Under the pieces are notes generated by a model. The model worked only from the letters and a program-made list of their open reading frames with translations. It searched no databases and was not told where the DNA came from. Shown here in pieces: positions 28,301-63,244 of a stretch of 64,000 nucleotides of DNA. The stretch is from Camarhynchus parvulus (lineage: Eukaryota; Chordata; Aves; Passeriformes; Thraupidae), in assembly GCF_901933205.1 (NCBI RefSeq), contig NW_022148710.1, positions 1 through 64,000 of the forward strand. Direction: 5' to 3'. How positions within the stretch are numbered: position 1 is the first letter of the stretch; every line of letters begins with the position of its first letter. The position numbers were made by a program, and so were the translations under genes.

Positions 28301-31300
28301 ACTCCCAGTCCATCCCAGTCCATCCCAGTCCCTCCCAGTCCCTCCCAGTCCCTCCCAGTCCCCCCCAGTTCCCTCCCAGTCCCTCCCAGTCCCTCCCAGT
28401 CCCACCTGTCCCCGAGAGCTCCTCCAGCAGGTCGGGCATTCCCCGCTTGCGCTTCACCTGCACCCGGTACGCGTCTGCGGGGGGAACAACGGGAGTTACA
28501 GCGGGAGTTACACCGGGAAATACACCGGGAATCACACCAGGAAATACACCGGGAGTTACACTGGGAAATACACCGGGAGTTACAGCGGGAAATACACCGG
28601 GAAATACACCGGGAGTTACACCGGGAATTACACCGGGAATTACACCGGGAAATACACCGGGAATTACACGGGAGTTACACGGGAAATACAGGGAGTTACA
28701 CCGGGAGTTACACCGAGTTACACCGGGAGTTACACCGGGAGTTACACCGGGAGTTACACCGGGAATTACACCGGGAGTTACACCGGAAATACACCGGGAA
28801 ATACACCGGGAATTACACCGGGAATTACACCGGGAAATACACCGGGAGTTACACCGGGAGTTACACCGAGTTACACCGGAATTACAGGGAGTTACACCGG
28901 AGTTACACCGGAGATACACGGAGTTACACCGGAGTTACACGGAAATACACGGGAGTTACACCGGAGTTACACCGAAGTTACACCGGGAATTACACCGGGA
29001 ATTACACCGGGAGTTACACCGGGAATTACACTGGGAGTTACACGGGAATTACACCGGGAGTTACACCGGGAATTACACGGGAATTACACGGGAATTACAC
29101 CGGAGTTACACCGGAATTGCACCGAGAGTTACACTGGCAAATACCGGGAGTTACACCAGGAAATACACCAGAAAACGACACCGCAAACGTTACCGGGAGT
29201 TACACCGGGAAACGTTACCGGGAAGTGTCACCGGGAAACACCGGGGAACAGCAGGAAATGTCACCGGGAAACATTACAGGGAACAGCAGGAAATGTCACC
29301 GGGAAACACCGGGAACAGCAGGAAACGTCACCGGGAAACACCGGGGAACAGCAGGAAACGTCACCGGGAAACACCGGGACTGACGGCTGTTCTCGCAGTT
29401 CCCGGGGTTCCTGGGTGTTCCTGGTGTCCATTCCCGGTGTCCATTCCTGGTGTCCATTCCCGGTGTCCATTCCCGGTGTACATTCCCGGTGTCCATTCCC
29501 GGTGTCCATTCCCGGTGTACATTCCCGGTGTCCATTCCCGTGTCCATTCCCGGTGTCCATTCCCGGTGTCCATTCCCCGTGTCCATTCCCAGTGTCCATT
29601 CCCGGTGTACATTCCCGGTGTCCATTCCCGGTGTCCATTCCCAGTGTCCATTCCCCGTGTCCATTCCCGTGTCCATTCCCGGTGTACATTCCCGGTGTCC
29701 ATTCCCGGTGTCCATTCCCCGTGTCCATTCCCGGTGTACATTCCCGGTGTCCATTCCCGGTGTCCATTCCCGGTGTTCCCAGTTATTCCGGTGTCCATTC
29801 CCGGTGTCCATTCCCGGTGTTCCCAGTTATTCCCGGTGGTTATCCCCAGGTGTTCTGTATGTGTCACGGTGTTTCGGCGGTGCCACCGGTTCCACCTGTG
29901 AACACCTGCACCCTGTCCTTGTACCTGTCACCTCTGTCCCTGTACCTGTCACCTGTACCTGCTGCCACCTGTACCTCTGTTATTCCCTGTCCCAGTTACC
30001 TGGTTACCCCCAGTTGTCCTGTCCCGTGCTGTACCGTGTACGCAGGAGGTGCCGAACCCTGCTGAACACCTGCACCTGCTGTACCTGTACCTGTACCTGC
30101 TGTACCTGTACCTGTACCTGTACCTGTACCTGTACCTGCTGCACCTGTACCTGTACCTGTACCTGTACCTGTACCTGTACCTGCTGTACCTGTACCTGTA
30201 CCTGCTGCACCTGTACCTGTACCTGTACCTGTACCTGCTGTACCTGTACCTGTACCTGTACCTGTACCTGTACCTGTACCTGTCCTGTACCTGTACCTGT
30301 ACCTGCACCTGTACCTGTACCTGTACCTGTACCTGTACCTGTACCTGTACCTGTACCTGCTGTACCTGTACCTGTTGTACCTGTACCTGCTGTACCTGTA
30401 CCTGTACCTGCACCTGTACCTGTACCTGTCACCTGTACCTGCTGCACCTGTACCTGTACCTGTACCTGCTGTACCTGTACCTGTACCTGCTGTGCACCTG
30501 TACCTGTACCTGCTGTACCTGTACCTGTACCTGTACCTGTACCTGCTGCACCTGTACCTGCTGCACCTGTACCTGTACCTGTACCTGCTGTACCTGTACC
30601 TGTACCTGCTGTACCTGTACCTGTACCTGCTGCACCTGTACCTGTACCTGCTGTACCTGTACCTGTACCTGTACCTGCACCTGCTGTACCTGTACCTGTA
30701 CCTGCTGTACCTGTACCTGTACCTGTACCTGTACCTGTACCTGTACCTGTACCTGCACCTGTACCTGTACCTGTACCTGTACCTGTACCTGTACCTGTAC
30801 CTGCTGCACCTGTACCTGTACCTGTACCTGCACCTGCTGCACCTGTACCTGTACCTGCTGTACCTGTACCTGTACCTGTACCTGTACCTGCACCTGCACC
30901 TGTACCTGCACCTGTACCTGTACCTGTACCTGTACCTGCACCTGCTGCACCTGTACCTGTACCTGCTGTACCTGTACCTGTACCTGTACCTGCTGTACCT
31001 GTACCTGTACCTGCTGTACCTGTATCTGTACCTGCTGCACCTGTACCTGTACCTGTACCCCACCCCCGTTATCCCCGGTGGGTACCGGTGTCCCGGGGCA
31101 GGTAGGTGAACCGGAACCCCTCACTCCTCACGCTGTCGGTGAGGCGCTGCAGGAACACCTCCACCTGCACGGGCTCCCGCAGCTCCAGGTGCGCGTAGGG
31201 CGGCGTGCGCAGCACGATCGCCACCTGCCGGTGAACGTCGGCCTGGGAGAAATCGGCCCGAGCCTCCCAGGGCTCCTTGCGGAAAATCACCGCGATGTCC

Positions 31301-34300
31301 TCTGGAAAACAGAGGCGGGGATTCCTTGGGAATCGGGGATTTGGGAATTCGGGATTGGGAATGTGGGATTTGGAGTATTGGATCGGGATTGGTTTATGGG
31401 ACAAATCCGCGAATCCTCCCAGGGCTCCTTGTGGAAAATCACCGCGATGTCCTCTGGAAAACAGCGGGAATTCCGTGGGATTCGGGAATTCGGGAATTCG
31501 GGATTTGGGATTGGGATTGGGAATGTGGGATTTGGGGTGTGGGATATGGGAGAAATCCGCGCACTCCTCCCAGGGCTCCTTGCAGAAAATCACCGCGATG
31601 TCCTCTGGAAAACAGCGGGAATTCCTTGGGAATCGGGGATTTGGGAATTCGGGATTTGGGATTGGAATCGCATGTGGGATATGGGAGAGATCGGCCCGAG
31701 CCTCCCAGGGCTCCTTGTGGAAAATCACCGCAATGTCCTCTGGAAAACAGCGGGAATTCCTTGGGAATCGGGGATTTGGGAATTCGGGAATTCGGGATTT
31801 GGGAATGGGATTCGGGGTGTGGGATATGGGAGAGATCGGCCCGAGCCTCCCAGGGCTCCTTGTGGAAAATCACCGCGATGTCCTCTGGAAAACAGCGGGG
31901 ATTCCGTGGGAATTGGGAATTCAGGGATTCGGGAATTCGGGATATGGGTTGGGAATGGGGGCAGCGCCCCAGCTGTGCCCAGGTGTGATCCCAGGTGTGA
32001 TCCCAGGTGTGATCCCAGCTGTGCCCGTTTTTACCTTTCTGGACCTTGTCGCAGAGCAGGTAGAGCTCCTCCCTGCCCAGCTGTGCCCAGGTGTGCCCAG
32101 GTGCCCCCAGCTGTGCCCAGGTGCCCCCAGGTGTGCCCAGGTGTGCCCAGGTGTATCTCAGGTGCCCCCAGCTGTGCCCAGCTGTGCCCCCAGCTGTGCC
32201 CAGGTGTGCCCAGGTGTGCCCAGGTGTGATCCCAGCTGTGCCCAGGTGCCCCCAGGTGTGATCCCAGGTGTGATCCCAGCTGTGCCCAGGTGTGATCCCA
32301 GGTGTGCCCAGGTGTATCTCAGGTGCCCAGCTGTGCCCAGCTGTGCCCGTTTTTACCTTTCTGGACCTTGTCGCAGAGCAGGTAGAGCTCCTCCCCGCCC
32401 AGCTGTGCCCAGCTGTGCCCAGGTGTGATCCCAGGTGTGCCCAGCTGTGCCCAGGTGTATCTCAGGTGCCCCCAGCTGTGCCCAGCTGTGCCCAGCTGTG
32501 CCCAGGTGTGCCCAGGTGTGATCCCAGCTGTGCCCAGGTGCCCCCAGGTGTGATCCCAGGTGTGATCCCAGCTGTGCCCAGGTGTGATCCCAGGTGTGCC
32601 CAGGTGTATCTCAGGTGCCCAGCTGTGCCCAGCTGTGCCCGTTTTTACCTTTCTGGACCTTGTCGCAGAGCAGGTAGAGCTCCTCCCCGCCCAGCTGTGC
32701 CCAGCTGTGCCCAGGTGTGATCCCAGGTGTGCCCAGCTGTGCCCAGGTGTATCTCAGGTGCCCCCAGCTGTGCCCAGGTGCCCCCAGGTGTGATCCCAGC
32801 TGTGCCCAGCTGTGCCCAGCTGTGCCCAGGTGTGATCCCAGGTGTGCCCAGGTGTATCTCAGGTGTGCCCGTTTTTACCTTTCTGGACCTTGTCGCAGAG
32901 CAGGTAGAGCTCCTCCCCGCCCAGCTGTGCCCAGCTGTGCCCAGGTGTGATCCCAGCTGTGCCCAGGTGTGATCCCAGCTGTGCCCGTTTTTACCTTTCT
33001 GGACCTTGTCGCAGAGCAGGTAGAGCTCCTCCCCGCCCGTGCAGGGGCCGCTCTCTTTGTTCATGCGGCAGAGGGCATCTCCGGCGTTTTTGGTGGATTC
33101 TGGAACTTTTTCAGAGCGAATTTTTTGGAACCTTCGGGAACCGTGGGGGATGGGAGGGATTTTGGGGGGATTTTTGGGGAATTTTTGGGGGATGATTTCG
33201 GAATTTCGGGGGAATTTTTTGGGAATTTTTTGGAAATTTTTGGGGGGTGATTTTGGAATTTTATGGGATTTTTTGGGGAATTTTTGGGGGACGATTTTGG
33301 AATTTTGAGGGAATTTTTGGGGAATTTTTGGGAATTTTTGGGAGACAATTTTGGGGGAATTTTTGTGGGATTTTTAGGGATTTTTTGGGAATTTTGGGGG
33401 ACAATTTTGGAATTTTTGGGGAATTTGGGGGGAATTTTGGGGAATTTTTGGGGATGATTTTGGAATTTTGTGGGAATTTTTGGGGCTGATTTGGGATTTT
33501 TTTGGAGATAATTCTGAGATAATTTTGGGACATCTCTGAGATATTTTCAGGAAATTTCAGGGATATTTTTGGGGATGTTTTTGGGATTCTTTGGGGCTGT
33601 TTTTGGGGATAATTCTGAGATATTTTCGGGACATTTCGGGGACATTTTTGGGGGGATTTTGGGGGATTTTGGGACTCACTCTTGTCGAAGATGGGCTGGG
33701 ACAGCACCGGGCTGAGGCTGCGCGGGATTTTTGGGGATATTTTTGGGATTTTTGGGGGGATAATTCTGAGATATTTTCAGGATATTTTCAGGATATTTCT
33801 GCGATATTTTCAGGATATTTTTGGGGCGATTTCGGGATATTTCAGGGACATTTTTGGGGTGAATCTGGGGGTTTTTGGGACTCACTCTTGTCGAAGATGG
33901 GCTGGGACAGCACCGGGCTGAGGCTGCGGGGGATTTTTGGGGCTGTTTTTGGGGATAATTCTGAGATATTTTCGGGACATTTCGGGGACATTTTTGGGGG
34001 GATTTTGGGGGATTTTGGGACTCACTCTTGTCGAAGATGGGCTGGGACAGCACCGGGCTGAGGCTGCGGGGATTTTTGGGGATATTTTTGGGGATAATTC
34101 TGAGATATTTTCGGGACATTTCAGGGACATTTTTGGGGTGAATTTGGGGGTTTTTGGGACTCACTCTTGTCGAAGATGGGCTGGGACAGCACCGGGCTGA
34201 GGCTGCGCGGGATCCCGGCGCGGTCCCGGAACGAGGCCTGGAAGCAAATCCGCACCACGTTGAGATCGACCTCCTGGTGGTTCCGCAGGGAGCCCGCTGG

Positions 34301-37300
34301 GGAAAAACGGGGCAGAAACGGCGAAAATGGCGAAAAACGGGGCGGAAATGGGGGGAAATGGGGGAAAACGGGGCGGAAATGGGGGAAATGGGGAAAAACG
34401 GGACAGAAATGGCGAAAATGGCGAAAAACGGGGTGGAAACGGTGAAAATGGCGAAAAACCGGGCCGAAACGGCAAAAATGGCAAAAAATGGGGCGGAAAC
34501 GGCAAAAATGGGGAAAAACGGGGCAGAAACTACGAAAATGGCGAAAAACGGGGCAGAAATGGGGGGAAATGGGGGAAAATGGGGCAGAAACGGGGGAAAA
34601 TGGGGAAACGCGGGGCGGAAACGGCGAAAAAGGGGAAAATTGGGGCAGAAACGGTGGAAATGGGGAAAAACCGGGCAGAAACGCCAAAAATGGGGAAAAA
34701 CGGGGCAGAAACGGCAGAAATGGCGAAAAACGGGGCGGAAATGGCAAAAATGGGGAAAAACGGGGCAGAAACAGCAGAAAATGGGGAAAAAGGGGCAGAA
34801 ACGGCAAAAATGGGGAAAAACGGGGCAGAAATGGGCGAAAATGGGGAAAATTGGGGCAGAAACGGTGAAAATGGGGAAAAACCGGGCGGAAATGGGGGAA
34901 AATGGGGGAAAATGGGGCAGAAATGGCAAAAATGGGAAATGAGGGGCAGAAACGGCAAAAATGGGGAAAATGGGGAAAACGGGGCAGAAACGGCAGAAAT
35001 GGTAAAAACGGGGCAGAAACGGCAAAATGGGAAATGCAGAGCAGAAACAGGGCAGAAATGGCAAAAATGGGGAAAAACGGGGCAGAAACGGGGAAATGGG
35101 GAAAACGGGGCAGAAACAGCAGAAATGGCGATAAACGCGGAAACGGGGGGAAAATGGGGAAAATGGGGCAGAAATGGCAAAAATGGGAAACGCGGGGCAG
35201 AAACGGCGAAAAAGGGGAAAATTGGGGCAGAAACTGTGGAAATGGGGAAAAACGGGGCAGAAACGCCAAAAATGGGGAAAAACGGGGCAGAAACGGCAGA
35301 AATGGCGAAAAACGGGGCGGAAATGGCAAAAATGGGGAAAAACCGGGCAGAAACAGCAGAAATGGGGAAAAACGGGGCAGAAACGGCAAAAATGGGGAAA
35401 AACGGGGCAGAAACGGCGAAAATGGGGAAAATTGGGGCAGAAACGGTGAAAATGGGGAAAAATGGGGCGGAAACGGCAGAAATGGCGAAAAACGGGGCAG
35501 AAATTGGGGGAAATGGGGCAGGAATGGGAGAAAAAGGGGAAGAAATGGGGAAAGATGGTGGGAAATGGGGGAAAATGGGCAAAACCGGGGGAAAAGGGGG
35601 AAGAAATGGAGGAAATGGGGCAGGAATAGGGAAAAATGGGAAAAATGGGGCAGAAATGGGGAGGAAATGGGGGAAAATGGGGAGAAATGGGGGCAGAAAT
35701 GGGTGTAACATGGAGAAAATGGGGGAAAATGGCAAAAATGAGGGAAAATTGGGCAGAAATGGGGAAAAAGGGGACAGAAATGAGGGAAAATGGAAGAAAA
35801 ATGGAGAAAAATTGGGCAGGAATGGGGGAAGATGGGGAAAAATGAGGAAAAGGGGGGAAAACGGGGAAAACGGAGCAGAAATGGCGAAAAACCTGGGGGA
35901 AAATGGGGAAAATGGGAAGAAAGGGTGAGAAATGGGGGGAAATTGGGAGAAATGGGGAAAAACCTGGGGGAAATGGGGCAGAAATGGGGAAAATGGGGGA
36001 GAAATGGGAAAAATGGGGCAGAAATGGGAAAAATGGGGCAGAAATGGGAAAAATGGGGGTAAAAGGGTGAGAAATGGGGAAGAATGGAGGGAAATTGGGA
36101 GAAATGAAGATAAAATGGGGGGGAAATGGGGAAAAATCAGGGAAGAATAACAGAAAAGAGGGAAAATGGGTTCTGCAGGGATCCCATGGGAAAAAATGGG
36201 AAAAATGAGGAAAAACAGGGAAAAAATGGGGGAAAAGGGGGGAAACCAAGAGATATCATGGAAAAACCAGGGGAATGGGAGAATACAGGAAAAATAAGGG
36301 AAAAAAAGGAAAAACGGGGGAAAAAACACAGGAAAATGGGAAAAAACACAAAAAAAGAAAAAAAAAACCAACAGGAAAAACAGGGAAAAGAAAAGAAAAT
36401 TTGGGAAAACGTGGAAATCTGGAAAATCCAGGGGGAAAATAGGGGGGACTGGGGAAGAGAAAAAACAGGAAAAAACAGGAAAATTGGGGAACAAAATTAG
36501 GAAAAAGTGGGGAAAAAAAACACCAAAAAAAAGGAAAAAAGCTCCAGAAAATCAGGGAAATGTGGGGAAAAGTGGAAATGCAGGGAAATGCCAGGAAAAT
36601 GCGGGGAAAAGGGGAAATTCTGACCTTTGAAGGGGTCGATGCCGAGCTGCAGCTTCTTCTCGATGGCGGCCTCGATTTCCTTCTTCTTCACACACTGAAT
36701 GCCCAGGTTGCTGAAACTGCCAGAAATGCCCAAAATTCCCAAATTTTCCAGCTCCCTTCCTGAATTCCCCGCCCCAGAAATGCCCAGAAGCCTCAAAAAT
36801 GGCAAAAAAAAGGCAAAAATGCCCCAAAATGCCCCAAAAATGCCCCCAAAATGCCCCAAAAATGCCTCAAAAATAATTGGGAAATGACAGAAAATTCAAT
36901 GGGAATTTGGGTTTTTTGGGATATTCCAGGTTCGGGGCTTGAGGAGCCCCTGGAAGAGCCCAAAAAATGCCTCAAAATCACAGGAAAAAAAGCACAAAAA
37001 TGCCCCCAAAATGCCGGGAAAATGGGAAAAAATCTGGGAAAATCCCAAAAATTCCAACCCAAGGGAAATTCCCAGATTTTCCTGGTGCTTGGGATGGGTT
37101 TGGGGCTTGAGGAGCACCGGGCAGAACCCAAAAAATGCCCAAAAACCGCCCAAAAAATGCTGGAAAAATGCACAAAAATGCCTGAAAATGCCCCAAAACT
37201 CCAGGAAAAAAGGAAAATTCGTGAAAATTCCCATAAAATTCCATTTTTTTTGGGGATTTGGGGTTTACCTGTGCCGGGGGTTGCTGTGGGGCCGCAGCAC

Positions 37301-40300
37301 GCACGCCCGGCCAAAACCACCCAAAAGCCCAAAAATGCCCCAAGCCCCAACACAAAAAAGGGTGCTTGGGGCCCCCAAAGCCGCACAGGGAAGAGAAAAA
37401 TCTGGAAAAATCCCAAAAATTCCAAAAGGACCAAAAACCCAATGGATATTCCCAGAAATTTTTTTGGGAAAAGAAAGCTTTGAGGATGAGTTTGAGGAGC
37501 ACCGGCAGAACCCAAAAAGTGCCCAAAAATGCCCCAAAAACACCCAAAACCCCAAAAACCCCAAATGCCAAACCTCAAAATGCGAAAAAAATGGAAAAAT
37601 CCCTAAAAATTCCAACAAAATTCCATTTTTTGGGATTTCCCGGATTTTTCTGTGCCGGAAAAGCTTGGGATGAGTTTGAGGAGCACCGGCAGAGCCCAAA
37701 AGTGCCCAAAATGCCAAAAAACCACCCCAAAAATGCCCAAAAAATGCCCAAAAATGCACCTAAAAACACCAGGAAAAAGGGAAAATTCCCAGAAATCCGA
37801 AAACATTTTTTGGGGATTTGGGGTTTACCTGTGCCGGGGTGCGTGGGCTGTCGGGCCCCACAACCGCAACCAAAACACCCCAAAGAAAAAACCCAAAAAT
37901 GGTGCGCGCACAATGCCAAAACCACCCCCAAAAATGCCCCAAAAACGCCCCAAAAATGCCCCAAAATCTCCAGGAAAAGGGAAAAAAATCTGGAAAAATC
38001 CCTAAAATTCCAACAGGATCCAACCCTATGGATATTCCCAGATTTTTTTTCGGGAAAAGAAAAGCTTGGGATGAGTTTGAGGAGCACCGGGCAGAACCCA
38101 AAAAAGTGCCCAAAAAATGCCCAAAAACCACCCAAAAACCACCCAAAAACCACCCAAAAATGGCCCTAAAAACGCCAGGAAAAAGGGAAAATTCCCAGAA
38201 AATTCCTTTTTTTGGGATTTGGGGTTTACCTGTGCCGGGGGTTGCTGTGGGGCCGCAGCAGCACCCGGCACAGCCCCTGGGCGCAGCCAAAATCCACCCC
38301 AAAAATGCCAAAAAAATGCCCCAAAAATGCCCCAAAATGGCCCTAAAAACGCCAGGAAAAAGGGAAAATTCCCAGAAAATTCCCAGAAAATTCCATTTTT
38401 TTGGGGATTTGGGGTTTACCTGTGCCGGGGGTTGCTGTGGGGCCGCAGCAGCACCCGGCACAGCCCCAAAATCCACCCCAAAAATGCCCAAAAATGGCCC
38501 TAAAAACGCCAGGAAAAAGGGAAAATTCCCAGAAAATTCCCCGAAAATTCCTATTTTTTTGGGATTTGGGGTTTACCTGTGCCGGGGGTTGCTGTGGGGC
38601 CGCAGCAGCACCCGGCACAGCCCCTGGGCGCAGTCCTTGCCCACGAGGCCGTGCGGGTGCACCCGGTGCGGCCAATCCTTCCACACCAGCACGGCCGTGA
38701 CCGCCACCTCCGGGATGCCCTGGCAGTTCAGCAGCTGCGGCGGAAACACCGGGAAAATCGGGGGGAAAATCGGGGGGGAAATCGGGGAAAATTAGGGGGA
38801 AAATCGGGGGAAAATCGGGGGAGAAATTGGGGAAAAATTGGGGAAAAATCAGGGGGGAAATTGGGGAAAAATTGGGGAAATGGCAGGGGGGAAATTGGGG
38901 AAAATCAGGGGGAAATCATGGGAAAAATTGGGGGAGAGTTGGGGAAAAGTCAGGGGGGAAATTGGGGAAAATTGGGGGGAAAATTGGGGGAAAGTCAGGG
39001 GGAAAATTGGGGGGAAAAATTGGGGGGAAATTGGGGAAAAATTGGGGGGGAAATTGGGGAAAATTAGGGGGAAAATCGGGGGAAAATCGGGGGAAAATCG
39101 GGGGAAATCGGGGGGAAATCAGGGGGGAATCGGGGGGGAATCGGGGGGGAATCGGGGGGGGAAAATTGGGGAAAAATCGGGGGAAATTGGGGAAAAATCG
39201 GGGGGGAAATTGGGGAAAAATTAGGGGGAAATCATGGGAAAAATTGGGGGGGAAATGGGGAAAAGTCAGGGGGGAAATGGGGGAAAATCAGGGGAAAGTC
39301 AGGGGGAAATCATGGGGGAAATTGGGGGGAAAATTGGGGGAAAGTCAGGGGGAAAATTGGGGAAAAATTGGGGGGGAAATTGGGGGAAAGTCAGGGGGAA
39401 AATTGGGGAAAATCAAAGGAAGAATTGGGGGAAAATGGGGGAAAAATCAGGGGGAAATTGGGAAAAAGTCACGGGGAAAACTTGGGAAAATCAGGGGAAA
39501 ATGGGGAAAATTCAGGGGGAAAATTGGGGAAAAATCGGGGGGAAATAATGGGAAACATTGAGGAGAAATTGGGAAAAAGTTGGGAAAAGTCAGGGAGAAA
39601 GTTGGGAAATGCCGGGAGGAAAATCAGCGGAAAATCGAGGGAAAATTGGGGAAATCCTGGGGAAATCTGGAGGAAATTCTGGGGAAATGCGGGAAAAATC
39701 CCAGGGAAATCCCAGAAAAAGCGAATCCGGGAAAAATCCCGTGGATAACCCGGGAAATCCCCCCCAGAGGCCATTCCTGCTTCTCCCGAGCTTTGCCCGG
39801 CTTTTTCCCGATTTTTTTCCCATTTTTCCCCCAATTTTTTTCCCGGTGTCTCACCTCGATGCTGGGCAGGGTGCGGATGCTCTCGGTGCTGTTTTCCCCG
39901 ATTTTTTCCCCCAATTTTTCCCCGATTTTCCCCCGATTTCCCCCAATTTTTCCCATTTTTTCTCCCATATTTTTTCCCGGTTTCTCACCTCGATGCTGGG
40001 CAGAGTCCGGTTGCTCTGGCTGCTGTTTTCCCCAATTTTTCCCCGATTTTTCCCCGATTTTTCCTCCGATTTCCCCCAATTTTTCCCATTTTTCCCGGTG
40101 TCCCACCTCGATGCTGGGCAGGGTCCGGTTGCTCTCGGTGCTGTTTTCCCCGAGTTTTCCCCGATTTTCCCCCAATTTTTCCCCCGATTTCCCCCAATTT
40201 TTCCCATTTTTCCCCATTTTTTTCCCGGTGTCTCACCTCGATGCTGGGCAGGCTGCGGTTGCTCTCAGTGCTGTTTTCCCCGAGTTTTCCCCGAGTTTTC

Positions 40301-44047: not shown

Positions 44048-44537
44048 GTCCCGCTCCCGGTGCGAGTCCCGGTGCCGGTGCCGCTGGTCCCGGAGCGGGT
44101 CCCGGGGGTCCCGGGGGTCCCGGAGCCGCCGCTGCCGCTCCCGCCGCCCCCCGAGGCCGCGCCGCCGCCGGACCTGGAAATCCCCGCGCGGGCCGCGCCG
44201 CCATTGGCTGAGCCCGCCGTGACGTCACCGCCGGGGGCGCGGTCGGGGAAACCCCCGCCGGGAGCGCACCGCGCCGCCATTGGCTGAGCGCGCCGGTGAC
44301 GTCACAGCAGGGAACACCCCCTGGAGAGCTCTAGGGGCGGGGCGCGCTCCCATTGGCTGAGAGCGGCTGAGAGGGCGGGGCGGGGAAACCCCCACCCGCC
44401 GGGGGCGGGCCGCGCGGCTATTGGTGGAGACTGCTATGACGTCACAAAAGGGGCGCGGTTTGCGGCCTTTCCCGCCCCTCATTGGGGTCACGTGGGCGCT
44501 GCCCCCCGGAAGTCTCGCGAGAGGCGGCGCAGCAAAG
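44048..44537. promoter_or_regulatory. bidirectional RELB / CLPTM1 promoter
   Basis: About 490 bp of unique CpG-rich DNA separates the two start codons. Visible sites are: CRE palindromes TGACGTCA at 44220-44227, 44297-44304 and 44437-44444; CCATTGG boxes (NF-Y type) near 44201, 44277 and 44350, with further ATTGG at 44420 and 44481; kB consensus GGAAATCCCC 44176-44185 and GGGAAACCCC 44246-44255 and 44383-44392; E-box CACGTG 44489-44494; ETS CCGGAAGT 44506-44513; palindrome TCTCGCGAGA 44513-44522. No TATA box is seen. The ETS and TCTCGCGAGA motifs lie within 35 bp of the CLPTM1 ATG. Confidence 0.85.
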
Positions 44538-44591
44538 ATGGCGGCGCCGGGGACGGAGGCGGCGGCGGGGCCGGGCCCGGGCCCGGGGCAG
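44538..44591 (+). CDS. CLPTM1: CLPTM1 exon 1
   Basis: This is 18 codons, MAAPGTEAAAGPGPGPGQ, with a good context (AAAGATGG) and a GGCAG|GTCCGG donor in phase 0. Human starts MAAAQEADGARSAVVAAGG and breaks at the same GQ|V position. Confidence 0.88.
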
Positions 44592-50500: not shown

Positions 50501-53500
50501 ATGGGATTTGGGATTTGGGATTTGGGATTGTGGGATTGTGGGATTTGGGATTAAATCTGGGATTGCGATTAAATCTGGGATTGGGATTACGGGATTTGGA
50601 ATTTGGGATTTGGGAGCGGCGGGAGCGGCCGCAGCCCCAGCAGGAACCTGTTCCCCAAGGACACCCTCATGGTGGGGCTGGGATTATGGCATTATGGGAT
50701 TAAATCTGGGATTGGGATTATGGGATTTGGGATTTGGGATTTGGGATTATGGGATTTGGGAATTTGGGATGTGGGAGCGGCGGCAGCGGCCGCAGCCCCA
50801 GCAGGAACCTGTTCCCCAAGGACACCCTCATGGTGGGGCTATGGGATTTGGGATTTGGGATTGTGGGATTTGGGATTTGGGATTAAATCTGGGATTGCGA
50901 TTAAATCTGGGATTGGGATTGGGGATTTGGGATTTGGAATTGGGGATTTGGGAGCGGCGGCAGCGGCCGCAGCCCCAGCAGGAACCTGTTCCCCAAGGAC
51001 ACCCTCGTGGTGGGATTTGGATTATGGGATTGGGATTTGGGATTGGGATTGTGGGATTTGGGATCAGATCGGGGAGCGGGGGCTGAATTCCTGGGATTTT
51101 GGGGCTCATTCTCAGGAATTTGTGATTGAATTTGGGATTTTGGGATTAAATGGGATTTGGGATTTTGATTGGGAATTTGGGATTTTGGGGATTCTGGGAT
51201 TTTTGGGATTAGCTCCTGGGATTTTTGAGCTGAATTTGGGATTTTGGGACTCTTCCGATGGGATTTTTTCGGGTTGAATTGCAGGATTTGGGCTGAATTC
51301 CCAGGATTTTCCCAAGGCCTCATGGTGCTAGGGATTTGTTTGGGGAATTCGGGGATTTTGGGATTCATTGTAGGAATTTTGAGCTGAATTTCAGGGATTT
51401 TTGAGCTGAATTCTGGGGGATTTTGGGCAAATTCAGGTAATTTTTGGGCAGCATTCCCGACTTTTTCGCAGAATTGGCTGGGATTTTTTGGGATAATCTG
51501 GGATTTTGGGGTGATTGGGATTTGGGATTGGATTATGGATTTTGGGTGAATTTGGGATGTGGGGCTGAACCAATTCCAAGCATATTGGGCGAGGATTGGG
51601 ATTGTTTTGGGATAATTCTGGGGCGTAAATTTGGGGGGATTGGGGATTTGGGATTTTTTTGGATGAGGCGGCGGGATTTTTGAGCTGAATTCCCAGAGGA
51701 CACTTTTGGGTGGAATTTGGATTTTGGGACTTGCCATTGGGATTTTATTGGGATGAATTGGGGGGATTGGGGCTGAATTCCTGGGATTTTGGGGCTCATT
51801 CTCAGGAATTTTTGAGCTGAATTTCAGGGATTTTTGAGCTGAATTCCGGGGAATTTCTGAGCTGAATTCCCAGGATTTTTGGGCTGAATTCCCATGGAAT
51901 TTTTGGGCTGAGCTCCTGGGATTTTTTGAGCTGAATTCCCAGGATTTTGGGACTCCTTCCCAAGGATTTTTTCAGGTTGAATTCCCAGGATTTTTGGGCT
52001 GAATTCCCAGGATTTTGGGGGCTCATTCCCAGGATTTTTTGGGCTGAATTCCGGCGATTTTGGGATTCATTCCCAGGAATTTTTGAGCTGAATTTCAGGG
52101 ATTTTTGAGCTGAATTCTGGGGAATTTTTGGGCCAAATTCCAGGTAATTTTTGGGCAGAATTCCCGGGATTTTCGGGCAGAATTCCTGGGATTTTTTTTG
52201 GGCTGAATTCTCAGGATTTTCGGGCTGAATTCCTGGGATTTCAGGGCTGAATTCCCGGGATTTTCGGGCTGAATTCCTGGGATTTTTTGGGCTGAATTCC
52301 CAGGATTTTGGGACTCCTTACCGAGGATTTTATTGGGCTGAATTCCCGGGATTTTTGGGCTGAATTCCGAGGAATTTGGGGCAGAATTCCTGGGATTTTT
52401 TTGGGGGGCTGAATTCCCGGGATTTTTGAGCTGAATTCCCAGGATTTTTTGGGCTGAATTCCCAGGATTTTGGGACTCCTTCCCAAGGATTTTATTGGGC
52501 TGAATTCCCGGGATTTTTGGGCTGAATTCCTGGGATTTTTTGAGCTGAATTCCCAGGGATTTTCGGGCTGACTTCCTGGGATTTTTTCGGGCTGAATTCC
52601 CGGGATTTTTGACCTGAATTCGCAGGATTTTTGGGCAGAATTCCTGGGATTTTTTGAGCTGAATTCCCGGGATTTTTTGGGCTGAATTCCCAGGATTTTG
52701 GGACTCCTTCCCAAAGATTTTTTCGGGCTGAATTCCCGGGATTTTTGAGATGAATTCCGGGGAATTTTTGAGATGAGTTCTCGGGATTTTCGGGCTGACT
52801 TCCTGGGATTTCAGGGCTGAATTCCGGGGAATTTTTGGGCAGAATTCCTGGGATTTTTTTGGGCTGAATTCCCGGGATTTTTGAGCTGAATTCCCGGGAT
52901 TTTTGAGCTGAATTCGATTTTTGAGCTGAATTCCCGGGATTTTGGGCCTCTCTCTCCCGCAGGATCTCTACGTTTACATCTCGGAGCACGAGCACTTTAC
53001 GGATTTCAACGTCAGCTCCGCCCTTTTCTGGGAAAAACGGGATTTGGTCTACGGGGACTGGACCAGCGGCGAGAACTCGGACGGCTGCTACGAGCACTCC
53101 GGGGAGGTGGACATCTCCCAGGTGGGAATTCCCAAAATTCCAGGAATTCTTGGAATTCTGGGGTCTGGGAATGGGAATTTGGGACAGTTGTGGGGAGATT
53201 TGGGGTCTGGGAATGGAGATTTGGGGTGGGGAAAAGGGAATTTGGGGTCGGGAAAAGGGAATTCCAGGTGGGACTTCAGGAATTCTGGGGTCTTCTTCTG
53301 GTGGACATCTCCCAGGTGGGAATTCCCAAAATTCCAGGAATTCTTGGAATTCTGGGCTCTTCCCAAGGGATTTTTGGGGCGGTTCTGAGGGGATTTGGGG
53401 TCTGGGAATGGAGATTTGGGGTCGGGAAAAGGGAATTTGGGGTGGGGAAAAAGGGAATTCCGACGGCTGCTACGAGCACTTTGGGGAGGTGGGCATCTCC

Positions 53501-56500
53501 CAGGTGGGAATTCCCAAAATTCCAGGAATTCTTGGAATTCTGGGCTCTTCCCAAGGGATTTTTGGGGCGGTTCTGAGGGGATTTGGGGTCTGGGAATGGA
53601 GATTTGGGGTCGGGAAAAGGGAATTTGGGGTGGGGAAAAGGGAATTCCGACGGCTGCTACGAGCACTTTGGGGAGGTGGACATCTCCCAGGTGGGAATTC
53701 CGGGAATTTTGGGAATTCTGGGATCTGGGAATGGGAATTTGGGGCGGTTCTGAGGGGATTTGGGGTCAGGAAAAGGGGATTTGGGGTTGGGAAAAGGGAA
53801 TTTGGGGTTGGGAAAAGGGGATTCCAGATGGGAGTGGGAATTTTGGGGTTTTCCTGAGGGATTTGGGGTCTGGGACAAGGGAATTCCAGGTGGGATTTCA
53901 GGAATTCTGGGGTTTTCCCAAGGGATTTTGGGGCGGTTCTGAGGGGATTTGGGGTCTGGGAATGGAGATTTGGGATCAGGAAAAGGGAATTTGGGGTTGG
54001 GAAAAAGGGAATTCCAGGTGGGACTTCAGGAATTCTGGGGTCTTCTTCTGGTGGACATCTCCCAGGTGGGAATTCCCAAAATTCCAGGAATTCTTGGAAT
54101 TCTGGGCTCTTCCCAAGGGATTTTTGGGGCGGTTCTGAGGGGATTTGGGGTCTGGGAAAAGGGAATTTGGGATGGGGAAAAGGGAATTCCAGGTGGGAGT
54201 GGGAATTTTGGGATTTTCCCAAGGGATTTGGGATTGGGGTTTTTCCTGAGGTTTTTCCAGGTTTTTTCCCAGGGTTCTCCTGGGTTTTTAGGAAGTTTTT
54301 CCTGGGGTTTTTGGAGGCTTGTTCCCAAGATTTTTCAGTGTTTTTCTCAGGATTTTCCCAAGTATTTTTCCCGAGGTTTTTCCGGGGTTCTTCAGGGTTT
54401 TCCCGAGGTTTTTCCCGGATTTTTTTCCTGATTTTTCCCAGGGTTTTTGGGGGCTTTCCCCCGAGGTTTCTCCAGGATTTTCCACGGGTTTTTTCCCAGG
54501 TTTTTCCAGGTTTTTTGGGAAGTTTTTTCCGGGATTTTTCAATGTTTTTGGAGGGTTGTTCCCAGGATTTTTTAATGCTTTTCTCAGGATTTTCCCAAGT
54601 ATTTTTCCCGAGGTTTTTCCGGGGTTTTTCAGGGTTTTCCCGAGGTTTTTCCCGGATTTTTTTCCTGATTTTTTCCAGGCTTTTTGGGGACTTTCCCCCG
54701 AGGTTTCTCCAGGATTTTCCACGGGTTTTTCCCAGAATTTCCCAGGGTTTTTTCCCGGTTTTTTAAGAGATTTTCCCCAGTTTTTTCCCAGGGTTTTTCC
54801 GGGTTTTTTAAGAGATTTTTTTCCAGGGTTTTTCTGGGTTTAGGAGATTTTCCCCCAGGGTTTTTAAAGAGATTTTCCCCAGGATTTTTCCAGGGCTTTT
54901 CTTGCTCTTTTCCCCAATTTTTTTTCCCCGTGATTTTTCCCAACCTTTTCCCTGTTTTTTATGGGTTTTTTTCCCCCGGAATTTCGCGCAGAGCGTGCAG
55001 AGGAACGGCTCCATCTACGTGCACGTCTACTTCACCAAGAGCGGCTTCCACCCCGACCCGCGGCAGAAAAGCCTCTACCGGCGCCTGGCCACCGTGCACA
55101 CCTCCAGGAGTACGGAATGCCGGGAATTCCGGGATATTTCTGGGAATTTCTGGGAATTTCTGGGAAATTTCTGGGAATTCCTGAGCTTTGGGATCCAAAT
55201 TCCCCCAGGAACAGCCCCAAATCCCTTGGGAATTGGGCAATTCCCAGGAATTCCCGATTTTTGGGATCCAAATCCCCTGGGAGCGGCCCCAAATCCCTTG
55301 GGAATGAGGCAATTCCCAGGAATTCCCGATTTTTGGATTCCAAATCCCTTGGGAATGGGGAAAATCCCAGGAATTCCCGATTTTTGGATTCCAAATCCCT
55401 TGGGAATGGCCCCAAATCCCCCAGGAACGGCCCCAAATCCCTTGGGAATGGGGCAATTCCCAGGAATTCCCAATTTTCAAGATCCAAATCCCCCTAGGAT
55501 GTCCCTAAATCCCTTGGGAACAGGGAAATTCCCAGGAATTCCCGATTTTTGGGATCCAAATTTCCCCAGGAACGGCCCCAAATCCCCCAGGAATGGGGCA
55601 ATTCCCAGGAATTCCCAATTTTTGGGTTCCAAATCCCTTGGGAATGGGGTTGGGATCAGCCCTGGCCACTGTGCACAGCTCCAGGAGTACGGAATTCCGG
55701 AAATTCCGGGAATTTCTGGGAATTTCTGGAATTTCTGGGAAATTTCTGGGAATTCCTGAGCTTTGGGATCCAAATTCCCCCAGGAACGGCCCCAAATCCC
55801 TTGGGAATTGGGCAATTCCCAGGAATTCCCGATTTTTGCGTCAAATCAACCCCCAAATCCTTGGGAGAGAATCCCAGGAATTCCCAATTTTTGGGATCCA
55901 AATCCCCAAGGAACGGCCCCAAATCCCTTGGGAATTGGGCAATTCCCAGGAATTCCCAATTTTTGGGTTCCAAATCCCTTGGGAATGGGGAAAATCCCAG
56001 GAATTCCCGATTTTTGGATTCCAAATCCCTTGGGAACGGCCCCAAATCCCCCAGGAACGGCCCCAAATCCCTTGGGAATGGGGCAATTCCCAGGAATTCC
56101 CGATTTTCAAGATCCAAATCCCCCTAGGATGTCCCTAAATCCCCCAGGAACGGGCAAATTCCCAGGAATTCCCAATTTTTGGGTTCCAAATCCCTTGGGA
56201 ATGGGGCAATTCCCAGGAATTCCCAATTTTCAAGATCCAAATCCCCCTAGGATGTCCCTAAATCCCTCGGGAACACGAAAATTCCCAGGAATTCCCAATT
56301 TTTGGGATCCAAATCCCTTGGGAATGGGGTTGGGATCAACCCTGGGTACCGTGCACAGCTCCAGGAGTACGGAATGCCGGGAATTCCGGGAGTTCTGGGA
56401 ATTTCTGGGAATTCCTGAGCTTTGGGCCCCAAATCCCCCAGGAACAGGGAAAATCCCAGGAATTCCCGATTTTTGGGATCCAAATTTCCCCCAGGAACGG

Positions 56501-59500: not shown

Positions 59501-62500
59501 GAAGTTTTGGAGCGAATTTTTTTTAATTTTTGGGGGGGTTTTAGGGGATATTTTGGGGGGGAATTTTTGGGATTTTTGGGGTAATATTTTTAGTGTTTTT
59601 GGGGATTTTTTGGCATTTGGTGGGGGTTGGGATTATTGGGGCATTTTCGGGGTTTTTTAAGCGGTTTTGGGTTTTTTGAGGGGATTTTTTGGGCTTTTTT
59701 TGGGAGATTTTGGGGCTTTTGGGGGATTTTTGGGGGAATTTTTTGGTGTTTTTTAAATAATTCTGAGGTTTTTTAGGAGTTCTAGGGTCTTTTTGGGGGA
59801 CTTTTTTTGTTTGTTTTGTTTTGTTTTGCTTCTGTTTTTGGTTTTTGGGGCAGGTTTGGTTGGGGTTTTTTTGGGTTTTTTGGTTTTCTGGGGATTTTTT
59901 TGGGGGTTTTTTTTTTTTTTTTTGTTTTGGTTTTTTTTGTTTTTTTTTTATTTTATTTTTTTTTTTTAAATTTTTTTGGGGTTATTTTTTTTGTGTTTTC
60001 CTGCCAACCCTGCGCTTTTCCCCTGCAGAGAGCCGAGGATTTCGGGCCGGTCGAGGTCATTTCCCACTGGCACCCCAACCTGACCATCAACATGGTGGAT
60101 GACCACACGCCCTGGGTCAAGGGCAGCGTGCCCCCGCCCCTGGACCAGTGTGAGCAGCCAGAATTCCCAGTTTTCCAAAAAATTCCCAAAAATTGGAAAA
60201 TTCCCAGAAAAACCAAAAAATCCCATTAAAAACGGGGCTGGGTTGGGATTGTGGGGTCCCAGTTCATCCCAGTTCATCCCAGTTCATCTCTGGGTCAGGG
60301 GCAGTGTTTCCCACCCTGGACCAGTGTGAGCAGCCAGAATTTTGTGTTTTCCTGAAAAAATTCCCCAAAAATGGAAAATTCCCATAAAAAACCAAAAAAT
60401 TCCCATTAAAAATGGGGCGGTTGTTGTGCCACCCCTCTCCCCTCCCACATTATTGGCAGTTTTCCCCCCTAGTTACCATTACCAGAATTGTGGGGCCCTA
60501 GTTTCCTGTTCATAAAAATTCCCCAAAAAATGGAAAATTTCCTATAAAAACAAATAATTCCCATTAAAAACGGGGCTGGGTTGGGATTGTGGGGTCCCAG
60601 TTCATCCCAGTTCATCCCAGTTCATCCCAGTTCCTCCCATTCCCAATCCCTAATTAATTTATTCCCGTTATTAATGAAGCTATTCCATTATTAATGATTT
60701 TTCCTATTGCCAACCCCATTTCCCCCAATTTTCCTGGGGTTTTTTCCCATTTTCCCCCTTTTTTCCATTTTTTCCTGGTCCTAATCTCATTTTCCCCCGT
60801 TTTCCCCATTCCCAATCCCATTTTTCCCATTCCCAACCCCATTTTTCCCCATTTCTCCCCCATTTCCCCCCATTTTTCCCATTCCCAACCCCATTTTCCC
60901 CATTTATTCCCCATTTTTTCTGTTCCAAATCCCATTTTTTCCCCACTTTCCCCCATTTTTTTTCCATTCCAAACCCCATTTATTCCCCATTTTCCCCCCA
61001 TTTCCCCCCATTTCCTCCATTTTCCCCCATTTATTCCCATTTTCCCCATTTTCCCCCCATTTTCCCAATTTCTCCCTCATTCTCCCCCATTTTTTCTCTT
61101 CCAAATCCCATTTTTCCCCATTTCCCCCCATTTTCCCCCATTTATTCCCCATTTTCCCCATTCCCAACCCCATTTATTCCCCATTTTCCTCTTTCCCAAC
61201 CCCATTTATTCCCATTTTTCCCCAATTATTCCCATTTTTCCCCATTTTCCCCCCATTTATTCCAATTTTCCCCCATTTCCCCCCATTTATTCCCATTCCC
61301 AACCCCATTTATTCCCCATTTATTCCCCATTTCCCCCCATTTCCCCCATTTATTCCCATTTTTCCCCCATTTATTCCCCATTTCCCCCCATTTATTCCCC
61401 ATTTATTCCCCATTTCCCCCCTATTTCCCCATTCCCAACCCCATTTATTCCCCATTTCCCCCCATTTATTCCCATTTTCCCCATTTTTTCCCTATTTCCC
61501 CCATTTTACCCCCATTTATTCCCATTTTCCCCCCATTTCCCCCATTCCCAACCCCATTGATCCCCATTTTACCCCCATTTATTCCCATTTTTCCCCATTT
61601 TCCCCCCATTTTCCCATTTTTTTCCCTATTTCCCCATTCCCAACCCCATTTATCCCCATTTTACCCCATTTATTCCCATTCCCAACCCCATTCATTCCCC
61701 ATTCATTCCCCATTTCCCCCCATTCATTCCCCATTCATTCCCCATTTCCCCATTCATTCCCCATTCATTCCCCATTCATTCCCCATTTCCCCCCATTCAT
61801 TCCCCATTCATTCCCCATTCATTCCCCATTCATTCCCCATTCATTCCCCATTTCCCCCCATTCATTCCCCATTCATTCCCCATTCATTCCCCATTCATTC
61901 CCCATTCATTCCCCATTCATTCATTTCCCATTCATTCCCCATTCATTCCCCATTTCCCCCATTCATTTCCCCATTCATTCCCCATTCATTCCCCATTCAT
62001 TCCCCATTCATTTCCCCATTTCCCCATTCATTCCCCATTCATTCCCCATTCATTTCCCCATTCATTTCCCCATTCATTCCCCATTTCCCCATTCATTCCC
62101 CATTCATTCCCCATTCATTCCCCATTTCCCCATTCATTCCCCATTCATTCCCCATTCATTCCCCATTTCCCCCCATTCATTCCCCATTCATTCCCCATTC
62201 ATTCCCCATTTCCCCATTCATTCCCCATTCATTTCCCCATTTCCCCATTCATTCCCCATTTCCCCATTCATTCCCCATTTCCCCATTCATTCCCCATTCA
62301 TTCCCCATTTCCCCCCATTCATTCCCCATTCATTCCCCATTCATTCCCCATTTTCCCCCGATTTCTCCCGCCAGACGTGAAGTTCGACGCGCTGAGCGGG
62401 GATTACTTCCCCATCCTGTACTTCAACGATTACTGGAACCTGCAGCGCGATTACTTCCCCATCAACGAGAGCGTGCGGCGCCTGCCCTTCCGTCTGTCCT

Positions 62501-63244
62501 TCTGCCCGCTGTCGCTGTGGCGCTGGCAGCTCTACGCGCGCAGAGCTCGCGCAGCCCCTGGAACTTCCTGGGCGAGGAGCTCTACGAGCAGAGCGACGAG
62601 GAGCAGGACTCCGTCAAGGTACAAATTCCACACTTTCCCTGAGTTTTCCATTTTTTTCCTGATTTTTTGGGGTTTTCCTGGGGCTTTGTGGGGATTTTTC
62701 CCGATTTTTCTATGATTTTTCCTGATTTTTCTGCAATTTTTCCCACTTTTTGTACATTTTTCCCCAGTATTTTTCTACAATTTTCCCAATTTTTCTATGA
62801 TTTTTCCTGAGTTTTCTACAATTTTTCTACAAATTTTCCCAATATTTTTCCCAATTTTTCTACAATTCTTCCCAATATTTTTCCCAATTTTTGTACATTT
62901 TGTCTACAATTTTTCCTGATTTTTCTACAATTTTTCTACGAATTTTCCCAGTATTTTTCCCAATTTTTCTACAATTTTTCCCTGATTTTTCTACCATTTT
63001 CCCAATATTTTTCCCAATTTCTGTACAATTTTTCCCAATATTTTTCCCGATTTTTCTACAATTTTTCCCGATTTTTCTACAATTTTTCCCAATATTTTTC
63101 CCAATTTTTCCCGATTTTTGGGGGGTTTTTGCTGGGGATTTTTCGGGGTTTTTACGCGTTTTGGCGCAGAGCTCGCGCAGCCCCTGGAACTTCCTGGGCG
63201 AGGAGCTCTACGAGCAGAGCGACGAGGAGCAGGACTCCGTCAAG
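44538..63244 (+). CDS. CLPTM1: CLPTM1 gene (cleft lip and palate transmembrane protein 1), overall locus, 3' end outside window
   Basis: CLPTM1 is a multi-pass ER membrane protein, paralogous to CLPTM1L; in mammals it has been reported to retain GABA-A receptors in the ER. Nine plus-strand exons with agreeing phases encode MAAPGTEAAAG, NAWQVVKGVLF, the first membrane helix IFIIWAISSWF, SRNLFPKDTLM, the large luminal domain (VYISEHEHFTDFN, LVYGDWTSGENSDGCYEH, NGSIYVHVYFTKSGFHPDPR, INKYKRRRFQKTKNLLTGE, ISHWHPNLTINMVDDHTPWV), VKFDALSGDYFPILYFNDYW and CPLSLWRWQLY, then SPWNFLGEELYEQSDEEQDS. The match to vertebrate CLPTM1 is very close. The multi-membrane C-terminal half lies beyond the window. 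Exons 8/9 show a junction anomaly. Confidence 0.97.
44600..45330. repeat. array, ACCGGGAACGGGAGCGG-type
   Basis: Degenerate 12-24-bp GC-rich units in CLPTM1 intron 1 (GACCGGGA, GGGAACCGGGACCGG). Confidence 0.88.
45330..47287. repeat. ~85-105-bp repeats carrying the CLPTM1 exon 2 acceptor
   Basis: About 20 units, each with GTTCCGGTTC(T/C), a CCCGCAG or TTTCAG acceptor, the exon-2-like start GTGTCCAGCAGTAACGGCGC, then CCGGTACCGG, GGGATGGGGTTGGGATCAGT and GTGTCAGTGACC. Acceptor-like sites occur for example near 45428, 45733, 45829, 46282, 46394, 46795, 46887, 47094 and 47194. The last unit is exon 2 itself. Confidence 0.96.
47288..47397 (+). CDS. CLPTM1: CLPTM1 exon 2: PAPNAWQVVKGVLF
   Basis: This 110-nt exon lies after TTTCAG and before TTCAG|GTGAGA. 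It reads VSSILRCRSVSRQGQQQPQQ, then PQPAPNAWQVVKGVLF with a split Arg. The second half equals human. The first ten codons differ from the ~20 upstream partial copies, which read VSSSNGAAG and resemble human VTSNGS more closely. Confidence 0.9.
47400..48570. repeat. 24-bp array, ACTGAAGGGGTTAAAGGGGC, with exon 2 donor copies
   Basis: About 45 units in CLPTM1 intron 2. Three embedded copies of CCTGTTCAG|GTGGGATTCGG (AG at 48049, 48365, 48520) mirror the exon 2 end and donor (CCTGTTCAG|GTGAGAGCGG). Confidence 0.95.
48580..49640. repeat. ~38-110-bp array, GGGAATCCATGGAAAAGGGG-type
   Basis: Units combine GGATTTTTGGGAA, ATAGAATCGATGG and GGGGAAAATTCCTGGGAAGG with AAAAAAGAAAAATTTTTGGG. The ~110-bp block recurs at about 48905, 49050, 49165 and 49280. 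Confidence 0.92.
49770..49893 (+). CDS. CLPTM1: CLPTM1 exon 3: IFIIWAISSWF and DTLM
   Basis: This 124-nt exon has a TTCCCGCAG acceptor and an ATG|GTGGGA donor. It holds the first membrane helix IFIIWAISSWF, a Ser/Gly-rich linker (SNGSGGSGRSPS) and RNLFPKDTLM. Six further copies of its 3' half follow in the intron. Confidence 0.96.
49894..51080. repeat. six copies of CLPTM1 exon 3 end plus (GGGATTT)n
   Basis: Copies of the Ser/Gly-linker-to-DTLM segment with its donor end at 50092, 50249, 50492, 50671, 50832 and 51009 (true 49893), separated by GGGATTTGGGATTGTGGGAT filler. The copy ending 50249 lacks six bases. Confidence 0.96.
51085..52955. repeat. 1.9-kb array, GCTGAATTCCCGGGATTTTTGG
   Basis: Units of 25-35 bp built on GGGCTGAATTCC and GGGATTTT, with higher-order blocks containing TTTTGGGACTCCTTCC at about 51942, 52305, 52464 and 52696. 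It fills CLPTM1 intron 3 up to the exon 4 acceptor. Confidence 0.94.
52963..53121 (+). CDS. CLPTM1: CLPTM1 exon 4: DLYVYISEHEHFTDFNVSSA
   Basis: This 53-codon exon has a CTCCCGCAG acceptor and a CCCAG|GTGGGA donor. It continues LFWEKRDLVYGDWTSGENS and ends DGCYEHSGEVDISQ. Human has NLHVYISEHEHFTDFNATSA. Confidence 0.97.
53122..54235. repeat. ~188-bp repeat carrying the CLPTM1 exon 4 end
   Basis: Exon 4 donor-equivalent positions 53315, 53503, 53690 and 54065 follow the true 53121 at multiples of about 188 bp. The 53503 and 53690 copies retain GACGGCTGCTACGAGCACT. The others keep only the last ~15 coding bases. Filler is GGATTTGGGGTCTGGGAATG. Confidence 0.95.
54236..54985. repeat. array, GGTTTTTCCCAGGATTTTTC-type
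   Basis: Pyrimidine-rich 15-25-bp units (TTTTTCCCGAGGTTTTTCC) with a ~240-bp block at about 54340-54500 repeated at 54580-54740. Immediately upstream of the exon 5 acceptor. Confidence 0.9.
54992..55109 (+). CDS. CLPTM1: CLPTM1 exon 5: SVQRNGSIYVHVYFTKSGFH
   Basis: This 118-nt exon has a CGCGCAG acceptor and an AGGA|GTACGG donor. It continues PDPRQKSLYRRLATVHTSR with a split Met completed by exon 6. Confidence 0.97.
55110..56755. repeat. 1.6-kb array with two copies of CLPTM1 exon 5 end
   Basis: Units of ~60 bp (CCCAGGAATTCCCGATTTTT, CCAAATCCCTTGGGAA). Exon-5-end copies CCAGGA|GTACGGAAT end at 55686 and 56366 (true 55109), each preceded by ACTGTGCACAGCT or ACCGTGCACAGCT. Confidence 0.94.
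56760..58500. repeat. CCCATTTTTCCC array with ~350-390-bp higher-order unit
   Basis: The block TTTTTCCTGCCCTTTTTGTT + CCCATTTTCCC...GCCTTATAATTTCCCC recurs from about 57174, 57562, 57910 and 58266. Each recurrence keeps ATTATTTTCGCTATTTTT. It fills CLPTM1 intron 5. Confidence 0.95.
58504..58589 (+). CDS. CLPTM1: CLPTM1 exon 6: INKYKRRRFQKTKNLLTGET
   Basis: This 86-nt exon has a TTTCCCTCAG acceptor and an ATCAAG|GTGGGA donor. It ends EADPEMIK. Residue-for-residue vertebrate match. Confidence 0.97.
58600..60000. repeat. T/G-rich array, GGGGATTTTTTGGGTCTTTTT
   Basis: Units of 35-60 bp in CLPTM1 intron 6, degrading to poly-T near 59900-59980 before the exon 7 acceptor. Confidence 0.88.
60029..60149 (+). 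CDS. CLPTM1: CLPTM1 exon 7: RAEDFGPVEVISHWHPNLTI
   Basis: This 121-nt exon has a CCCCTGCAG acceptor and a CAGT|GTGAGC donor. It continues NMVDDHTPWVKGSVPPPLDQ with a split Tyr. One copy of its 3' end follows 176 bp downstream. Confidence 0.97.
60150..60640. repeat. ~170-bp repeat with a copy of CLPTM1 exon 7 end
   Basis: AAAAATTCCC...CCCATTAAAAACGGGGC, then GTCCCAGTTCATCCCAG, occurs about three times. The second unit (60293-60335) starts with the exon 7 end and donor (CTGGACCAGT|GTGAGC, T at 60325). A short unique stretch lies at 60420-60510. Confidence 0.85.
60690..62365. repeat. 1.7-kb array, CCCCATTTATTCCCC then CCCCATTCATT
   Basis: CCCATTTTCCCC/ATTTATTCCC units give way after 61680 to a very regular 11-bp CCCCATTCATT array (about 55 units) that ends at the exon 8 acceptor. 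Confidence 0.95.
62375..62618 (+). CDS. CLPTM1: CLPTM1 exon 8 fused to an exon 9 copy, with frame break
   Basis: After a CCGCCAG acceptor the frame reads VKFDALSGDYFPILYFNDYW, NLQRDYFPINESVRRLPFR and CPLSLWRWQLYA up to 62538. With no intron, a second segment then follows: QSSRSPWNFLGEELYEQSD in the -1 frame, ending at the VK|GTACAA donor at 62618. One base appears missing at the junction (TACGCGCGCAGAG). The same segment recurs at 63170-63244 behind its own acceptor. Confidence 0.8.

Follow-up and report, generated by a model that had tools for sequence, protein, structure and literature searches.

Gene organization at the locus

The DNA analyzed here, a stretch of 64,000 nucleotides referred to below as the window, contains three adjoining bird-like genes. 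CLPTM1 lies on the plus strand, and both RELB and CLASRP lie on the minus strand. The genes were located by tblastn with human protein queries, and exon borders were set by hand and then checked. All 23 exons rebuilt in this way have AG and GT borders, and every count of exon edges given below covers these 23 exons, which are labeled E for CLPTM1, R for RELB and L for CLASRP. The rebuilt exons of each gene share one open frame, with the exception of a frame break in CLPTM1 E7. The identity of the genes is supported by Pfam, in which the CLPTM1 translation matches CLPTM1 (PF05602; 2e-61), the RELB translation matches the Rel homology domains and RelB_transactiv, and the CLASRP-like protein matches DRY_EERY. 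The top PDB match for the RELB translation is a RelB chain; a comparison of the CLPTM1 translation with PDB gave no match.

Two local features of the genes deserve mention. First, the frame shift in CLPTM1 E7 lies near 62535 (62530-62540) and could be an allele or a sequencing error; an intronic copy of the E7 edge differs from the exon at this same site. Second, RELB and CLPTM1 are divergent, and the region between them (44001-47300) is very GC-rich (0.72) and probably contains the start codon of CLPTM1 (44538). In mammals, RELB and CLPTM1 have the same orientation.

Copies of exon edges in the adjoining introns

Introns of all three genes contain copies of the edges of the exons beside them. 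A border-anchored, ungapped scan with a minimum score of 15 found 37 direct copies at 10 of the 46 exon edges, in each case in the adjoining intron. The copies score 16-80, and the 230 maxima from shuffled introns (5 per edge) are all 8 or lower. Eight of the ten edges are donors. In RELB (minus strand), the donor edge of R3 (41429-41014) has 8 copies with 45-48 coding bases at 39855-40913, that of R4 (38734-38577) has 3 copies at 37269-38467 with three exon breakpoints (31, 48 and 57 coding bases), that of R6 (34296-34165) has 3 copies with 43-49 coding bases at 33680-34068, and that of R7 (33099-32995) has 4 copies with 44 coding bases at 32035-32922. In CLPTM1 (plus strand), the donor edge of E2 (49770-49893) has 6 copies with up to 60 coding bases at 50033-51009; E3 (52963-53121) has 4, two with 42 and two with 16 coding bases, at 53300-54065; E4 (54992-55109) has 2 with about 26 coding bases at 55661-56366; and E7 (62375-62618) has 1 with at least 80 coding bases at 63165-63244. 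The two acceptor edges are those of RELB R8 (31301-31086, minus strand), with 4 copies carrying 39-58 coding bases at 31415-31884, and CLASRP L3 (13737-13658, minus strand), with 2 copies 188-189 bp apart at 13895-14114. The acceptors of RELB R6 and R7 score 9 at most and were left out of the counts.

Three further CLPTM1 edges, all on the plus strand and all scoring below 15, are weaker cases. The donor of E1 (end 47397) has 3 copies with 9 coding bases at 48041-48520, and the donor of E6 (60029-60149) has 1 copy with 12 coding bases at 60314-60325. The acceptor side of E1 has 11 acceptor-like copies at 46125-47191 (feature 46125-47216), mostly ~100 bp apart and upstream of 47288, which were found with a hand-made pattern without a shuffle control and beside an exon whose true acceptor is uncertain. 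The edge of E1 itself (47288-47330) differs from these upstream copies, which read VSSSNG. We take human CLPTM1 to read VTSNGS at this position, to which the upstream copies look closer than does the exon. Use of an alternative E1 acceptor ~40 bases further on would also preserve the frame.

With the weaker cases, 13 edges have copies, which bears out the original prediction of edge copies in at least 12 places. The two sets of 13 edges would coincide if the exon numbers used in that prediction are the E and R numbers plus one (E7 being its exon 9 and R3-R8 its RELB exons 4-9). It also held that the copies are direct, on the intron side, and still attached to a splice dinucleotide; these properties are confirmed here, since GT or AG is retained in all 37 copies, and orientation and location were the same throughout a BLAST screen. 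In this screen, the 23 exons were compared by blastn-short with the 20 introns between them, using the cut-off of 42.1 bits applied by Hron et al. There were 32 matches of at least 42.1 bits from 8 edges (E4 falls below the cut-off and the intron after E7 is outside the set), and each of the 32 has the same orientation as the exon and falls within its adjoining intron. Shuffled introns gave no match above 32.2 bits (20 dinucleotide shuffles per intron). Searches of the other strand and the other genes gave 4 matches of at least 20 bases, none above 24.3 bits, and no distal copy was found at 42.1 bits among the 23 exons and 20 introns.

The copies are anchored at the splice junction. Thirty of the 32 BLAST matches begin or end at the exon border; the other 2, both from E2, end 3 bases short because of substitutions. 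In the alignments, the similarity extends without interruption from exon sequence across the splice site and into the intron. Two details of the original prediction need correction. First, the number of coding bases per copy, predicted to be 15-60, ranges from 9 to at least 80. Second, regular periods are a feature of the R8 (135-152) and L3 (188-189) families, the latter in a CLASRP intron in which TRF reports a 189-bp array, but spacing is irregular for R7 (116-322), E2 (157-243) and E4 (577 and 680).

Could the copies be an artifact of assembly? There are sequence differences among the copies and among their flanks, the spacings vary, and there is no N in the window. Moreover, nanopore reads confirmed copies of this kind in chicken PHF8, according to the available text of Hron et al. 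(PMC12954441). An artifact is suggested by the difficulty of sequencing such regions, by the frame break in CLPTM1 E7, and by the use of one assembly, but we consider it highly improbable.

Do exon-intron junctions seed the arrays?

The relationship between the arrays and the exon borders was assessed from repeat coverage, defined as the bases in 30-base windows that recur at offsets of at least 60 with 26/30 matching in a direct diagonal scan. Because repeats of short period are also counted at their multiples, the measure gives elevated values for introns. Of the 17 introns of at least 300 bp, 13 are covered to at least 75% by local repeats (range 0.49-0.99). On the donor side, coverage is 0.84-0.89 beyond 200 bases into the intron and 0.59 in the first 15 intron bases; within the exon it is 0.50 in the last 15 bases, 0.23 at 45-60, 0.02 at 60-90, and zero farther in. 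On the acceptor side, it falls from 0.85-0.88 in the intron interior through 0.34, 0.13 and 0.06 to zero as the exon is entered. Thus, in these 17 introns there is no peak of coverage at the borders, on either the donor or the acceptor side, and coverage there is lower than in the intron interior.

This profile separates two parts of the original prediction, which described intron growth in which exon-intron junctions seed minisatellites. Intron growth by local tandem duplications that include exon edges is upheld, whereas a preference of repeat units for starting at junctions is not, as border coverage within the window is below that of the interior on both sides. For the window, this matches the outcome that the original prediction itself had named as counting against it. 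Exon edges are included because the arrays run up to and over the borders, and the window favors arrays that spill across exon borders over arrays that start there. Junctions could nonetheless seed arrays, for example via breaks or structures that depend on transcription or on the sequence of the splice site. Under such a model, one might point to arrays that touch a donor border and cross it in 8 of 10 cases, and to the excess of donors over acceptors, but the lack of a border peak on either side makes seeding improbable.

Origin and multiplication of the copies

How did single exon edges give rise to families of copies? Most copy families have a single exon breakpoint. RELB R4, with three, reflects either several events or later deletions. 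There are 26 distinct differences between copies and exons, of which 6 occur in only part of a family and 5 in every member of one; the 6 that are common to part of a family indicate that copies were copied from copies, and the five family-wide differences may be changes in the exon itself. An example of a difference between copies and exon is found at E3, where both long copies (53462-53503 and 53649-53690) read TTT (Phe) and the exon (53084-53121) reads TCC (Ser). Human CLPTM1 presumably has Phe at this site, so the E3 copies may preserve an older state of the exon.

The copies are less diverged in their exon parts than in the first 60 intron bases beside them (2.8% vs 5.3%, p = 0.0004). The divergence tests used 33 of the 37 copies, omitting 50249 (6-base deletion), 53315 and 54065 (16 bases only), and 37268. 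Slip-prone sequence, alignment, or occasional correction by the exon may explain the greater divergence of the intron parts. Alternatively, each copy might be a new product of the exon, generated via RNA or through recurrent gene conversion, for instance. The lower divergence of the exon parts and the three exon breakpoints of R4 would be compatible with fresh copying. Nevertheless, the copies continue into intron sequence, which is absent from spliced RNA; most families have one breakpoint; 6 of the 26 differences are common to some but not all copies; and there are no distal copies at 42.1 bits. Fresh copying of every copy is thus barely credible.

The exon pieces carried by the copies are short. 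The exon share of the repeat unit is at most 0.38 in 9 of 9 units, which is shorter than uniform breakpoints predict (p = 0.0008), using hand-chosen typical spacings, with E1, E4 and E7 excluded and R4 represented by one of its three breakpoints. Plain random duplication is therefore insufficient. Either breakpoints lie within tens of bases of the array, or longer pieces were removed, or the intron part was stretched later. The junctions themselves give a mixed picture of microhomology. At 15 junctions there is an excess of microhomology with the partner site (p = 0.011), although 7 junctions have weak partner matches (5-9 of 12 bases) and junctions of one exon are non-independent; there is none at 6 of the 15, and elsewhere it reaches four bases at R7, five at R6 and up to eleven at R3. 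A looser test of 14 breakpoints found no excess (p = 0.41).

Copies as splice sites and the excess of donors

Judged from their sequence, the copies look neutral but competent-looking as splice sites. In 33/37 copies, the identity between exon part and exon is 97.2%, and the changes, of which 16 are nonsynonymous and 10 synonymous, show no coding constraint (p = 0.39, with a share of 0.705 expected to be nonsynonymous). The nonamer of the authentic donor is present in 24 of the 31 donor copies. Splicing at a copy would preserve an open frame for 2 of the 37, both of them copies of the R8 acceptor. Does selection keep the copies as decoy or regulatory splice sites? Such a role would account for a GT or AG in every one of the 37 copies and for the retention of the authentic nonamer in most donor copies. 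However, at an overall identity of 97.2%, hardly any splice dinucleotides would be expected to have been lost in any case. In addition, the changes in the coding parts fit no constraint, and the frame would rarely stay open, although this would also fit a damping role. We regard selection of this kind as very unlikely.

Copies are more frequent at donors than at acceptors, a difference that was noticed post hoc. Including the weaker cases, 10/24 donors and 3/24 acceptors have copies (p = 0.049); excluding them, the numbers are 8/24 and 2/23 (p = 0.07). Similarly, arrays that touch an edge cross it at 8/10 donors and 2/7 acceptors (p = 0.058). The donor cases are in RELB on the minus strand and in CLPTM1 on the plus strand, so the bias tracks gene orientation; the sole case in CLASRP is an acceptor. 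A likely reason for the donor excess is that an extra upstream acceptor would disturb splicing more than an extra downstream donor.

Two other features of RELB involve repeats and splice-site-like sequence. First, exon R3 (minus strand) contains coding tandem repeats at 41177-41233 and 41283-41341, with periods of 9 (6.3 copies) and 12 (4.9 copies). Among the 23 exons scanned, R3 is the only one with in-exon tandem repeats, and both periods are multiples of three. To our knowledge, the human RELB protein lacks the R3 repeats. Second, the intron between R8 and R9 (28475-31085, minus strand; 2611 bp) is largely a CAGGTA array, i.e., a series of donor-like cores, with 129 CAGGTA and 156 CAGGT, as compared with 6 CAGGT in the other RELB introns. 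The donor excess, the junction microhomology and the in-frame repeats inside R3 should be considered leads only.

A model for the copies and its implications

What process best explains the copies? They are direct, local, contiguous with the exon border and intron, different from one another, and share variants, and array coverage falls smoothly across the border. It is very probable that they are products of exon stuttering, meaning local tandem duplication in repeat-filled introns that spills over exon borders, is tolerated, and yields copies that then multiply. Introns that are nearly all tandem repeat would grow through repeated local tandem duplication. Where a duplicated segment started a few tens of bases inside the exon and ended in the intron array, the intron would acquire an additional exon edge together with a splice site. 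Such a duplication would be tolerated because the copy is on the intron side and the original exon and junction stay put. Further duplications inside the array would then multiply the copy. Presumably, splicing ignores the copies, and selection removes duplications that alter the spliced exon. At the molecular level, the slip-prone repeats may duplicate by slippage, template switching or microhomology joining. Some observations sit less easily with exon stuttering. The lower divergence of the exon parts is not predicted by simple co-duplication, unless intron repeats mutate or misalign more. The microhomology results are mixed (p = 0.011 vs p = 0.41), and the five family-wide differences are perhaps exon changes.

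A broader and more tentative possibility is that splicing acts as a filter on exon stuttering, which can also enter coding sequence. Upstream acceptors that are used would be purged, leaving an excess of donors; stuttering inside an exon would survive only in multiples of three; and intronic copies would be fossils of older exon edges. The two long E3 copies and the copies on the acceptor side of E1 are closer than the exon to what we take to be the human sequence.

What are the implications of these findings? First, they provide a densely mapped case, comprising 13 edges of three adjoining genes, of a phenomenon that was described in 2026 and for which the authors leave the mechanism open (PMC12954441). 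Second, if the donor excess holds genome-wide, exon stuttering would amount to a natural experiment that reveals which duplicated splice sites cells are able to disregard and how genes stay functional on chromosomes rich in repeats.

Comparison with known systems

Ordinary intronic minisatellites are direct tandem arrays with variant units. The arrays described here share these properties but differ in that splice sites and coding sequence form part of their units. In intron gain by tandem genomic duplication, reportedly exemplified by a potato gene (PMC4974935), the duplicated segment likewise includes splice-site sequence. In the window, by contrast, the copies are inside existing introns between intact exons, and no new intron is apparent.

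The closest match is exon stuttering on chicken dot chromosomes, described by Hron et al. 2026 (PMC12954441); a system of this kind, of which the original prediction was not aware, has therefore already been described. The available text reports copies of adjoining-exon edges in 115 chicken genes and 236 introns, 190 of these introns being on dot chromosomes, with strong length variation among individuals and support from nanopore reads (PMC12954441). The authors use the names sequence stuttering and exon stuttering, and leave the mechanism to speculation (PMC12954441). No second report of exon stuttering was found among the literature matches listed. In chicken and here alike, repeat-filled introns contain several direct, intron-side edge copies with a donor or acceptor, contiguous with the border, and the exon itself is left in place (PMC12954441). 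The window has the same hallmarks: 13 of 17 introns are at least 75% repeat, all 32 BLAST matches are in the adjoining intron and exceed the shuffle maximum of 32.2 bits, and 30 of the 32 reach the exon border. In chicken, the source sequence is within 1 base of the border in more than 90% (PMC12954441). By analogy with the published pattern, the window probably derives from a bird dot chromosome.

There are also differences in what the two studies cover. The main text of Hron et al. names neither RELB nor CLPTM1, makes no use of the terms "microhomology" and "neutral", and has a single instance each of "donor" and "acceptor"; an analysis of donor excess or of junctions is not seen in the available text, and the present case maps 13 edges in three adjoining genes (PMC12954441). 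Repeats crossing into exons are stated there as not seen in chicken, and the in-frame repeats inside RELB R3 go beyond that statement (PMC12954441). Taken together, the copies in RELB, CLPTM1 and CLASRP are a clear new example of a described phenomenon rather than a new kind of system.
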